Of a stretch of 64,000 bases of DNA, positions 46,326-50,840 are shown piece after piece. The DNA comes from Blepharisma japonicum. Taxonomy: Eukaryota; Ciliophora; Heterotrichea; Heterotrichida; Blepharismidae. Each line of letters starts with the position of its first letter. Positions within the stretch are counted from its first letter, which is position 1. The position numbers and the translations under genes are program-made. The notes beneath the pieces were generated by a model, which saw only the letters and a list, made by a program, of their open reading frames with translations, had not been told where the DNA came from and ran no database searches. Location of the stretch: contig CATKHK010000121.1 in the NCBI GenBank assembly GCA_949751835.1, forward strand, positions 45,616 through 109,615, in the 5' to 3' direction.

Positions 46326-46537
46326 AACTAGTAATTTTAATATGAAAACCACAACTTTAATTGATTGCAAAGAAATGCCTCCAATTGGACTTTTTGAAAT
46401 TTATATTTTAGTTATTATTTATTAAATTATTTAGATAAAGCTTGTAGCATTTAAATTATTAAGTCTATTTTAGAAGATGCATTAATAAATTTATCAATAG
46501 ATTCCAGTGTTTTCAAGAAACATAAAATTGATTAAAT

Positions 46538-47440
46538 ATGGAAGTCAAACGAGTCTCAGTTCCCTATTTTTCTTCAGCACCCAGCACGATTGACAGCATA
46601 GACGAGGACACTCAATCCAAGCCAAGGAGAAAAGTTTTTAATAACAAAATCTCCAAAAGCTCAAGCTATGTTTGGGCATCTTCCATTCCACAAAGGTGAA
46701 AAGATTTAAAAGGAAATTCCTACTTTCTCCATATTTCTCAAACTACACGGCCGAAGGACACTTTAGAATTTTTGAGAGAATCACAAAAATATATTGACGA
46801 AATTAGAAGCACAGCGAAGAAAGTGATTGAGCTGGAAGACACCCATAAAGCACATAAATCATTAGCATCAAGACAATCTTTTATGAAAAAGACAAATTTT
46901 TCTAGTCCTAGCCATGATATTAGGAGTGAATATAGAAATACTCTAAGCCCGTCATTTAGGTCTGATGATGAGCTCTATATGAGTGCAAAACCATTTGAAT
47001 GGAATACTCCAAAGAATGCATTCGCTCAGAAAACTGCTAATGAGCACTCTCCCGATAGTTTAGTCTGAAGAAAGAGTAAAATAGATTTCAAAGCAAAAAG
47101 AAAAAATAAATTAATTAAACGCAAATGCAATAGCCCAGACGTATCAGAGACAGAGCTTCAGCTTAATCAATCGCCGTTTGCAATAACACCTATTTTTTAT
47201 GAGACAAATTTATTGAATTTAGTAACTCCGCATAGATTAATACCAAGTGGGATCGCAACACCAAGATATGTCAATAATACACCTACCTTTCTGGATCTAA
47301 ATTTGGCACACTATTTGAATAGATTTGAAGAAAGTAATAAAAATACTCACCCAATTCCACCTATAAATAAAAATTTCCCAGGGAGAAAACTCATAAGAAA
47401 CAAATTTTCATTAAGTCAAAAAATACTTCAAAAATCCTAA
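46538..47440 (+). CDS. Disordered hypothetical protein
   Basis: Protein of 300 aa with TGA as Trp (46697 region and 47066 region). Starts MEVKRVSVPYFSSAPST. A short helix (DTLEFLRESQKYIDEIRSTAKKVIEL) sits in otherwise low-complexity Ser/Asn/Pro-rich sequence, with a basic patch (KIDFKAKRKNKLIKRK). No known domain. Lies between the two globin-like genes, which are on the other strand. Confidence 0.6.
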
Positions 47441-47543: not shown

Positions 47544-47927
47544 TTAGATTTCTTCATCTTCTTCAACTCCTTCGCTACTTGTTTCATCAATTAATAAGCT
47601 AGAATAATTGGACAGGTTGGCAATAATAGTTTCAGTGTCTTCTGGCAAGACATTGGCTTGGTCTAAAGCAGCCTTCAAGCATATAAAAAACCTGTCCAAG
47701 TGCTCTTTACGAATACCTTTACTTTGATGGGCGTATTTTACAGCATCTTCATAGCCACATTCAACAAGCCCAAATCCTGCTTTCAATATTGCAAAATTTA
47801 TCATTTCAACTTCAGCTTGAGATCTTCTGCAAAAATATCGTCTTAAGAGTGGGTCTGAGCGAACTTTTTCATGAAAATCGTTGACTACTGCACTCCAAAA
47901 ATCAGTGTCTCCATATCTATAATACAT
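47544..47927 (-). CDS. Truncated-globin-like protein, paralogue 2
   Basis: Protein of 127 aa beginning MYYRYGDTDFWSAVVNDFHEKVRSDPLLRRYF. It shares about half its residues with paralogue 1, including EVEMINFAILKAGFG and VKYAHQSKGIRKEHLDRFFICLK, and has a slightly longer acidic tail (SSEGVEEDEEI). The AVVxxFxxxVxxDPxLxxxF start is the typical truncated-haemoglobin entry and YAH could supply the haem-ligating His. Two copies in ~2 kb, separated by one unrelated gene, indicate a local duplication. Confidence 0.62.
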   Translation of the reverse strand: MYYRYGDTDFWSAVVNDFHEKVRSDPLLRRYFCRRSQAEVEMINFAILKAGFGLVECGYEDAVKYAHQSKGIRKEHLDRFFICLKAALDQANVLPEDTETIIANLSNYSSLLIDETSSEGVEEDEEI

Positions 47928-48120
47928 TTAATTTTTAAAATCCGATGTCCAATAAATAAAAAATGAAATATAATCAGTTTAAGCTCTTATTTAATACTCA
48001 ATCGGTGTAAAATCATTAAGAGCATTATTTAAAAGTGTTTCATAAATGAATCATATTCACTAAAGTTATTAAGCCAAGGCAGAGGATGGATTTTTATATT
48101 TAATTGGATTGACTTAATTA
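47928..48120. other. Spacer upstream of the putative small-RNA cluster
   Basis: AT-rich with no ORF. It lies between globin-like paralogue 2 and the first box-plus-hairpin element. Confidence 0.35.
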
Positions 48121-48283
48121 TATCCCATAAATAAAACTTTTAGAAATTATTTTAATTTAAAGGAAAGGGGCTTTAGTTAAGTGACGCATATAAGCGTCAA
48201 AATGGCCCAACTGGCAGCTCCAGCTGTCTTAAAAATTCGTTATACTGGAATAGCTAAAGCCGAAGAGGCTAAAGGCTCTTTTT
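48121..48283 (+). ncRNA. Putative structured small RNA, element 1
   Basis: An upstream box TATCCCATAAATAAAA (48121-48136) is followed ~45 bp later by a perfect 5-bp hairpin, GACGC-atataa-GCGTC (48183-48198). Next comes the core GCTCCAGCT at 48217-48225, with a potential closing CTGGA further on, then a second hairpin region and a T-run at 48279-48283 that could terminate Pol III. The core recurs in elements 2 and 3. Inference from comparison within the window only; no known RNA family recognised. Confidence 0.4.
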
Positions 48284-48371
48284 ATCTTAAATGAAGATAT
48301 TTTATTCTATTTATAGGCATATCTTCTGTTTAAATATATGAAAAATGAAATATTTTAGATTATTAGTCTTT

Positions 48372-48546
48372 TATCCCATAAATAAAAGCCCCGAAAAAAA
48401 TAGTTAATTTAACAAATGAAGCATATATTAGATAACCCACCTTGGGCATTATTTAATTTATATAATCTAGCTAGAGGCGCTCCAGCTACCTTGAAATTAC
48501 TTCATACTGGAACTTTGCTATGTCTTCAGGACAAATAGCACTTTTT
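48372..48546 (+). ncRNA. Putative structured small RNA, element 2
   Basis: The same TATCCCATAAATAAAA box (48372-48387) lies 107 bp upstream of the core GCTCCAGCT (48479-48487); the spacing is 96 bp in element 1. The downstream string CTTGAAATT..TTCATACTGGA can pair TCCAG with CTGGA. Then follows GCTATGTC..GACAAATAGC, an imperfect hairpin, and a T-run at 48542-48546, 63 bp after the core start (62 in element 1). The spacing conservation supports a duplicated transcription unit. Confidence 0.4.
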
Positions 48547-48960
48547 AATACATTTAATTCTAGATTTCAACTTATATATTTTGAATTTATATTCGAAATA
48601 AATCCTTCGCTAAAAGCCTGCCAAAATAATCATTTTCACAATTATACATAATGTGTTGAATAATTTTTTTATAAATATCGTACTCAAAATTACCTAGTTT
48701 ATTGTGTTCAATCTTTCAAATTCAATTTTAAAATGTTTTTAAAAGAGCAAAGAATTTTTGGAAATCATTATAATATCTGAATAATGTTACGATTTTACTA
48801 GGTCATTTCGCAAAAATTTAGTTTAAAGTTTTTAATAATTAAATCAGAATTTATATTTAGTCTTGCAATTATGTTAATGAAAGCAGAACTAATTATTAAA
48901 GTAATAAATATCCCCCTCCCTTAAACAAAATGGTCAGATATAAATTTGAATTTAAAAATA

Positions 48961-49114
48961 TGACGTAAATTAAGATGTGTCCAAAATGGAGGATTGTTGG
49001 ATATACTTAGGATTATATAAAAAGCAAAAAATAGCTCCAGCTATCTTGAAATTCATTCAATTACTGGATAGTGCATTATTCCCTTGCTGTGCCCTCGGGG
49101 CAACAGCTATTTTT
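48961..49114 (+). ncRNA. Putative structured small RNA, element 3
   Basis: Carries the core GCTCCAGCTATCTTGAAATT at 49034-49053 with a downstream CTGGA, then a strong hairpin GCTGTgCCC..GGGGcAACAGC and a T-run at 49110-49114. The upstream box of elements 1 and 2 is not obvious here. Relative to element 2 a 2-bp insertion between the two paired arms would shift any reading frame but keeps the TCCAG/CTGGA pairing, which argues for RNA rather than a peptide. Confidence 0.33.
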
Positions 49115-49214
49115 CTAACAAGAGTAAAACACAAAAATTTGACAGATATCCTCGACGAGTCACCTTGTAATTATCAATTAGACATCCTATTAAATTAATC
49201 CTCGATTAGATTAC

Positions 49215-50423
49215 TTAAGACGAAAGTAACACAGGGCTTGAAATTTCCTCTTGAGTACTTGAGCTATAATTATTTGCAAGAGCAATGACGTTGCTAAACC
49301 AAGTCATGTTCTTTCCCCAAACGAATGTCATATGCCCGAAATTGTAGGTCTCTTCCTGATACACAATTGAACTAGATGGAATAACTCCTCTAAGCCAAGC
49401 ACCATCTGTAGGATCAGCAAGTCTATCATCTTTCCCAAAGAAAAGTGCAATTGGGCCAGGGATTTTAGCAAAGTTGTACACTGGAGGCTTCTTTTGCCCA
49501 TAGATCTTTTCATTGTCATGATCGCCAAAGTCATATTTTTGGACCTTGTAGACGTCATAGTTAGTCATCTGCTGCCAGTGTTGCATATTACGGACGCTGG
49601 TTCCTCCTGCTTCATGGGCCATAATGGTAGGAAGCATCTTATCGTTGTCGTTTCCGGTAATCAAATCAGCCAAAGCATAATCAACCCAGTCACAGACAAC
49701 ACTGAAAAGCTCACAGAAATCGTAATTTAGTCCTGGAGCATTATCATATGGCAAGAAGCAGCCAATTCCGAGGTCATTCATCATATCAAAAAGTGGGAGC
49801 TTTTTGATGAGGAAGAAGAAGTCAATTTTGATATGTCTGACAGTTCCTACTGGAGCCAAGGCAATGAAAATGTTGATGTTGTTGATGAAGGTTTGGTTTG
49901 ATGAAAGATGGGCAAACATTTGAAGGGTTCCTTGAGAGTGGCCAACATAGGTGAGCTTCTTTTGACCAGTAGTTTGGAGAACGTATGGAATTACAGCTGG
50001 AATATCGTAATCTGCCATATGTTGCCAGGTGAAATTCCAGTATTCTAAGTTTTTCCAAGGATTCAAGGTTACATGCCCAAGACTGTGGTAATTACCTCTT
50101 GAGTTGCCAAACCATACATCATATCCAGCTTCTGCAAATTGGAAACCTGGGGAATCTGGAAGATCCATAATCCAAGTATCTGCGCAGTCCAAAAGACCGT
50201 GCTGAAGGAAAACGACTTTTTTATTAGGATTTAGTGGCTGGTTTGCAGCTCCTGGGATGCGGAAAAGGGTTAAAATATAGTTATCTGCAGTTGTTACATT
50301 GTGGGTTTCAACTCTCCAACCATGGGCTGTGCAAACTTCTGTGAAGTTTCTTTTTGCATCTGGGTAATCTTCGGCAGAAACTGCACAAAGGATTCCAAGA
50401 AGAAGAATACAAATGACCTTCAT
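49215..50423 (-). CDS. Acid (lysosomal) lipase, AB-hydrolase family
   Basis: Protein of 402 aa from ATG 50423, which starts a clean signal peptide (MKVICILLLGILCAVSA); the frame continues slightly upstream but without an ATG. Acid-lipase features: HGWRVETHNVTTADNYILTLFRIP (lipase N-terminal region), FLQHGLLDCADTW (oxyanion), WFGNSRGNYHS, nucleophile elbow VGHSQGTLQ, and catalytic Asp/His regions LFFGKDDRLADPTD and FGHMTFVWG near the end. All triad residues are present, so probably an active lysosomal or secreted cholesteryl ester/triglyceride lipase. Trp all TGG. Confidence 0.93.
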   Translation of the reverse strand: MKVICILLLGILCAVSAEDYPDAKRNFTEVCTAHGWRVETHNVTTADNYILTLFRIPGAANQPLNPNKKVVFLQHGLLDCADTWIMDLPDSPGFQFAEAGYDVWFGNSRGNYHSLGHVTLNPWKNLEYWNFTWQHMADYDIPAVIPYVLQTTGQKKLTYVGHSQGTLQMFAHLSSNQTFINNINIFIALAPVGTVRHIKIDFFFLIKKLPLFDMMNDLGIGCFLPYDNAPGLNYDFCELFSVVCDWVDYALADLITGNDNDKMLPTIMAHEAGGTSVRNMQHWQQMTNYDVYKVQKYDFGDHDNEKIYGQKKPPVYNFAKIPGPIALFFGKDDRLADPTDGAWLRGVIPSSSIVYQEETYNFGHMTFVWGKNMTWFSNVIALANNYSSSTQEEISSPVLLSS

Positions 50424-50840
50424 TTTATTATCACACAAACTTAAGGGTTTTCAGAATATTTCGACAAATATGGGTAGATTTATTTAATTTTGATTCAACA
50501 AGAAGGGCTCTAATAAAAATTAAAGCTGAATTTTAATGTAAAATTTTCTTATCAATATATATAAAACTCGTATCAGATTTCTATATCGTATATATATCAT
50601 TACTAAATGTTAGTGCTATAATTTTAATATTTGCTGTTATTTGAAATTAAGTTCATATTTACTTCTATTGAATTCTTGAATGATAACTAATTGTATTCTT
50701 TTAATGTTTTAAAAATTATGAGATATCGAGCGGAATAAGAATTAAGTGTGTATTGCTTAAATTTAGCTGTTCAATTAATATTTATTTATATGAAAAATTT
50801 CCAGGAGTATTGTAGTTGATGATATTCTAGTAAAATTATA
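50424..50840. other. AT-rich intergenic spacer
   Basis: About 415 bp upstream of the lipase gene, with poly-A/T runs and repeated TATA-like strings; no gene recognised. Confidence 0.4.

Follow-up and report, generated by a model that had tools for sequence, protein, structure and literature searches.

7SK RNA, of the LARP7/MePCE type, is a Pol III transcript with a 5′ hairpin and with a 3′ hairpin followed by a U-tail. In ciliates, the Arisong RNAs of Oxytricha reportedly form a family of small RNAs with snRNA-like features that falls outside the known classes, and to our knowledge few independent non-coding RNA genes outside these classes have been described in this group. The telomerase RNA of ciliates is transcribed by Pol III from a type-3 promoter, according to the available part of PMC9841428.

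Here we describe three elements, E1, E2 and E3, found in a 64,000-nucleotide stretch of the Blepharisma japonicum genome (the window, whose numbering is used throughout). We regard E1-E3 as likely to be a set of paralogous non-coding RNA genes, whose short products would measure about 101, 113 and 138 nt and would most likely be made by Pol III.

Genomic setting of E1-E3

All three elements are located on the plus strand within a single gap of 1.29 kb. Both genes bordering this gap are on the minus strand: on the left a globin-like gene at 47544-47927 (Bac_globin in Pfam, 4e-06), and on the right a gene for a lipase at 49215-50438 (Abhydro_lipase, 1.4e-21). The predicted RNA regions have a G+C content of 44% (E1), 37% (E2) and 37% (E3), versus 23% elsewhere in the gap. 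When the gap was searched for repeats, similarity between the elements proved to be limited to an upstream promoter box (PSE) and a conserved core, besides one AT-rich repeat outside the RNAs. The sequence-only reading had recognized a set of three elements here and this was borne out: the core pattern occurs three times in the window at up to three mismatches, as compared with a mean of 0.08 matches expected in shuffled sequences. A tRNA search of the window found no tRNA genes.

The contig ends in TGTTAGGG repeats. For the related species Blepharisma stoltei, the available part of PMC9942806 gives telomeres made of CCCTAACA permutations, an AT content of 66%, and UGA as a tryptophan codon.

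Promoter sequences of the snRNA and SRP RNA genes and of E1-E3

The genes for U6, U2 (three copies), U5 and SRP RNA were located in this genome using Rfam families, and all six have the sequence TCCC[A/T]TAA upstream. The first C of the box is found at -60 in U6, at -54 to -56 in the U2 and U5 genes, and at -80 from one SRP model start. Counting from this C, the U6 and SRP RNA genes, both expected to be transcribed by Pol III, have TTTAAG exactly at +33 and a G at +59/60; the U6 model starts there, and the SRP model start from the Rfam library search lies 4 nt past +59. Among the genes for which Pol II is expected, U5 has TTAAAA at +33, and none of the three U2 copies has TTWAA at +32 to +34. 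Because U5 also has TTWAA at +33, the combination of PSE and TTWAA marks an snRNA-type promoter and not the polymerase by itself. In this genome the SRP RNA gene (L037:1480-1776) has a type-3-like external promoter composed of a PSE and TTTAAG at +33. In the U2 and U5 set (L033-L036), which has no TTTAAG at +33, two U2 genes and U5 share the motif AAAATGG at a distance of approximately 17-20 bp from the initial C of their PSE, and the third U2 gene has AAATATG; this is a possible switch between Pol II and Pol III.

E1 and E2 carry exact copies of a 16-bp box, TATCCCATAAATAAAA, at 48121..48136 and 48372..48387 (plus strand), 96 and 107 bp before their respective cores, as the sequence-only reading had stated. 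That reading assigned the box to these two elements only and overlooked a degenerate version in E3, CCTCCCTTAAACAAAA (48915..48930, plus strand), which is detected with a matrix built from the six reference genes. TATA-like sequences follow on the plus strand in all three elements: TTTAAAG in E1 (48156..48162, with TTAAAG at +33 from the first C), TTTAAC at +33 in E2 (48408..48413) and TTTAAA at +33 in E3 (48951..48956). The same reading had compared the arrangement to Pol III snRNA-type genes and proposed that the box be sought upstream of U6 and other snRNA genes. The sequence TCCC[A/T]TAA is present there in six out of six genes which, together with TTWAA at +33 in E1-E3, supports the snRNA-type organization, but the choice of Pol III over Pol II is less certain. 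E3 also has AAAATGG after its PSE as do the U2 and U5 genes, but closer in.

The strength of this match was evaluated using a PSE matrix derived from the U6, SRP, U2 and U5 promoters only (six genes), with E1-E3 left out. Over 127,968 window positions, E2 and E1 ranked first and second with equal scores, jointly the highest in the window, and E3 ranked 11th. Among the 11 window sites scoring at least as high as E3, TTWAA at +32 to +34 was present in all three elements and in none of the eight others, against a background frequency of 2.3%. In 200 random order-1 Markov windows, the mean number of such joint sites was 0.3 versus three observed, with at least one site in 51 windows and a maximum of three; the threshold for both tests was E3's own score, which makes them in part post hoc. 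With a matrix of 43 positions covering PSE and TATA, built from U6 and SRP alone, E1 was placed at rank 93, E2 at 21 and E3 at 12, and the ranks became 2, 1 and 4 when the telomerase-RNA candidate described below was added. U5 obtained 15.5 bits with the promoter model, versus 20-27 bits for the model's own six members.

Two other sites in the window scored well. The sequence TGTCCAATAAATAAAA at 47946-47961, 175 bp upstream of the E1 box, has the third-best PSE score in the window; it has no TTWAA at +32 to +34, with TTTAAG visible by eye at +29, and could be a decayed or a different promoter. The site at 46479 scored highest in the window with the thin matrix from U6 and SRP and ranked third with the one from three genes; it obtained only 6.5 bits with model R1. 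An open frame with an ATG start follows approximately 60 bp downstream, at 46538.

Genome-wide, TATCCCATAAATAAAA has two exact copies (E1 and E2) and 25 places with one mismatch. Only four of these 27 places have TTWAA at +32 to +34, namely E1, E2 and two further loci, L016 and L023, with the first T4 at offsets 96, 108, 177 and 111, respectively, from the predicted start. In 18 of the other 23 places a T4 occurs earlier than offset 60, and in three there is none before 96. The strict form TTTAAG at +33 is shared by U6, SRP and L016, with variants of it in E1-E3.

Locus L016 (1501-1744; G000:C16, PSE at 325114) combines a PSE and TTTAAG at +33 with a predicted RNA of 182 nt. Nucleotides 37-48 of this RNA are CACCCUAACACC, a 12-nt match to the telomere C-strand that stays single-stranded in the fold of minimum energy (-62.7 kcal/mol). 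The predicted fold also has a hairpin ending 4 nt before the template, a closing stem joining the 5′ and 3′ ends, and a long 3′ stem-loop ahead of the closing strand and U5 (T5 in the DNA), and a CCUUUG/CAAAGG pseudoknot stem appears possible by eye. In Rfam, L016 has no match at the gathering threshold, and its weak matches at E≤10 include no telomerase RNA. On its promoter, template and modelled fold, L016 is a convincing telomerase-RNA candidate. L023 (minus strand, approximately 1340-1516; PSE at G000:C30:204342-204357) has the PSE TATCCCATAAATGAAA, TTTAAC at +33, and an RNA of about 115 nt with a predicted fold of one long hairpin and an end at T4. It lacks both the E1-E3 core and an Rfam match at gathering, and is predicted to be a further RNA gene with an snRNA promoter.

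Predicted transcripts and their conserved core

Counting as above, RNA starts of E1-E3 were placed at +59 by analogy with the U6 and SRP spacing. This gives predicted plus-strand RNAs of 101 nt for E1 (48183..48283), 113 nt for E2 (48434..48546) and 138 nt for E3 (48977..49114). Folding places 5′-terminal hairpins at 48183..48198 in E1 (GACGC/GCGUC) and at 48977..49004 in E3; E2 has an A at its predicted start and forms only a weak 5′ hairpin. The hairpins begin at the predicted starts or within 3 nt of them, and the starts had been predicted without using the hairpins. Equally good 5′ hairpins were found for 0.8% (E1), 9% (E2) and 1.2% (E3) of 6000 random window starts, and for 2.0%, 7.9% and 2.6%, respectively, of the positions within 47960-49199. 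For E1, an alternative 10-bp helix reaches upstream of the predicted start.

Near the other end, 3′ hairpins at 48251..48276 (E1), 48516..48540 (E2) and 49085..49107 (E3) are followed by T5 terminators at 48279..48283, 48542..48546 and 49110..49114, respectively, all on the plus strand, which confirms the earlier description of a hairpin and a run of five T in each element. The first T4 is found at offsets 96, 108 and 133 from the predicted starts of E1, E2 and E3, with no internal T4 earlier. The 3′ hairpins have unpaired A residues on their 3′ side. Between E2 and E3, both of the two variable pairs in this hairpin are changed on both sides; this comparison has two sequences only, and 115 of 500 shuffles did equally well.

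The conserved core spans 34-36 nt, with 25 of 36 aligned columns invariant, and alignment places it at 48216..48249 in E1, 48478..48511 in E2 and 49033..49068 in E3, the last with a 2-nt insertion (all plus strand). Its 20-nt pattern, GCTCCAGCTNNCTTGAAATT, is exact at 48479 (E2) and 49034 (E3) but has two mismatches at 48217 (E1), so that the sequence-only reading was right about a shared core for E2 and E3 and too strict for E1. Other parts of its description hold: TACTGGA follows the core in all three elements, in agreement with the reported downstream CTGGA, the 2-nt insertion in the E3 core breaks the reading frame, and the distances from the core to the T-run are 62 bp (E1) and 63 bp (E2), with 76 bp in E3. 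The reading also proposed pairing between TCCAG and CTGGA, which is possible in all three elements. This helix is neither supported nor excluded by covariation, because none of its five pairs varies. A competing hairpin, AGC-UCCA-GCU, was recognized by eye in the E1 and E3 cores and is chosen in the predicted E1 fold; it precludes the TCCAG/CTGGA helix.

In a window scan with model R2, E1-E3 obtained 48-51 bits and the next-best hit 13 bits, R2 itself having been built from E1-E3. At up to two mismatches, GCTCCAGCTNNCTTGAAATT occurs in four places in the 45.2-Mb genome, which are E1-E3 and one site on contig C109 with no ACTGGA downstream and no TCCC[A/T]TAA in the upstream 160 bp. The exact pattern was also found once in a viral and five times in a bacterial sequence collection; none of these six matches has TACTGGA in place, and they were therefore taken as chance.

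Interpretation of E1-E3 and comparison with known RNAs

The most likely explanation is that E1-E3 have promoters of the ciliate snRNA type (type 3) and are transcribed by Pol III; the PSE would be followed 33 bp on by TTWAA, and transcription would start approximately 59 bp past the first C of that box. The PSE is common to the Pol II- and Pol III-type genes of this genome, and the elements may instead be non-coding RNA genes that use Pol II, as U2 and U5 are expected to, the T-runs being incidental. The TTAAAA at +33 in U5 resembles the TTAAAG of E1, one U2 gene has a T5 just past its 3′ end, and AAAATGG is present after the E3 PSE. However, each of E1-E3 has TTWAA at +33, which the three U2 genes do not, AAAATGG is absent from E1-E3 at the place where U2a, U2b and U5 have it (about +17 to +20), and all three elements have a hairpin immediately before T5 and no earlier T4; we consider transcription by Pol II unlikely. 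Only slightly better are the chances that E1-E3 derive from one non-coding RNA gene by decay or recent duplication, with at most one copy active, as might be suggested by the degenerate PSE of E3, the two mismatches in the E1 core, and the tandem placement on one strand. Against this, the PSE, TTWAA at +33, core, 3′ hairpin, T5 and freedom from internal T4 are kept in all three elements while the sequence between them contains no repeat, a pattern that looks like selection rather than decay.

It is highly improbable that the elements code for protein, as short genes or exons belonging to a small family of paralogous peptides with a common frame APAxLK.... The core is open in this frame (APAVLKIRYTG, APATLKLLHTG and APAILKFIQ), and open reading frames of 50, 40 and 73 aa run over the elements when TGA is read as Trp. 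Nevertheless, the differences between E1 and E2 are even over the codon positions (3, 2 and 2), the third positions of GCT CCA GCT are invariant in all three elements, the frame is broken by the E3 insertion, and there was no Pfam match above the cut-off (best value 0.12 for E3, none for E1 and E2). We rejected this reading on the lack of codon-position bias, the broken frame in E3, and the Pfam result. Less credible still is the view that the elements are cis-acting terminators or 3′-UTR hairpins of the adjoining protein genes: a hairpin and a T-run in an intergenic gap would fit, but both flanking genes are on the minus strand and each element has its own plus-strand promoter signature. Antisense pairing of the core with a structural RNA (SRP RNA helix 6 or the telomerase-RNA candidate), which would be compatible with the preferred explanation, was analyzed by contiguous pairing over eight RNAs and by shuffling against six targets (U6, U2a, U5, SRP, the telomerase-RNA candidate and L023 RNA). 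The E2/E3 core can form a duplex of 10 or 11 bp, a bulge and 6 bp with SRP RNA around nt 141-158, and the shuffles equalled the summed duplex energy in 4.7% of cases with SRP and in 4% with the telomerase-RNA candidate. With six targets neither value survives correction, and the predicted SRP fold already has this site base-paired. These best fractions (0.047 and 0.04 among six targets) were not accepted as evidence of pairing, and we view an antisense role as quite doubtful.

Returning to Pol III transcription as the preferred explanation, the RNAs would have a hairpin at or near the 5′ end, a variable linker, the conserved core, a 3′ hairpin, and a U5 tail left by Pol III termination. At the RNA level the core would be GCUCCAGCU-NN-CUUGAAAUU...UACUGGA in E2 and E3 and slightly altered in E1. 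The 5′ hairpin and the 3′ hairpin with its U-tail may protect the RNA through binding of a La/LARP7-type protein, and the core, presented on three different scaffolds, may be the functional face of an RNP, to which either a protein or a partner RNA would bind. The E1-E3 RNAs probably act as RNP scaffolds. The promoter class was computed here, and we infer transcription, the polymerase and the RNP step. More tentatively, with three copies known from one genome, E1-E3 might represent a new class of Pol III RNP RNAs restricted to heterotrichs, in which one core on three scaffolds would yield three related particles that differ in their jobs or regulation.

For this heterotrich, the U6 and SRP genes of the genome itself revealed the promoter grammar (PSE, TTWAA at +33 and a start at about +59), which turned a suspected motif into three gene models, a telomerase-RNA candidate (L016) and one more predicted RNA (L023). 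The same rule could help to catalogue RNA genes of the snRNA type in genomes of this kind.

Searches of the literature on Blepharisma or Stentor telomerase RNA, on Arisong, and on ciliate telomerase RNA and Pol III returned no mention of E1-E3 among the matches listed, and no paper was found on Blepharisma or Stentor telomerase RNA or on Arisong. The available parts of PMC9841428 and PMC12133305, on ciliate telomerase RNA and Pol III, do not mention Blepharisma or heterotrichs, and the Stentor splicing paper PMC9505925 contains neither Blepharisma nor the promoter terms sought. Over E1-E3, none of the 4227 models of Rfam 15 matched at the gathering threshold or at E≤10. The two Rfam matches obtained at E≤10 both fall between E2 and E3 and lie on the minus strand, and the same library recovers the U6, U5 and SRP RNAs of this genome.

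Compared with known systems, E1-E3 are closest in promoter to the U6 and SRP genes of the same genome, with which they share the PSE TCCC[A/T]TAA, TTWAA at +33, a start at about +59 (predicted for E1-E3) and a T-run end. They differ from these genes in having variants of the TTTAAG at +33 and no Rfam match. With the telomerase RNA of ciliates they share the promoter class, the size range, and the 3′ hairpin with a U-tail; however, telomerase RNA contains a telomere template, whereas E1-E3 have none, the longest telomere-repeat match being 4 nt in each. The likeness to 7SK RNA is in the general layout only, E1-E3 having no Rfam match. The nearest precedent may be the Arisong RNAs of Oxytricha, with their reported snRNA-like features. 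With no Rfam match and no mention among the papers listed, the E1-E3 RNAs appear to be a new family within a known kind, the PSE-driven small-RNA genes of ciliates.
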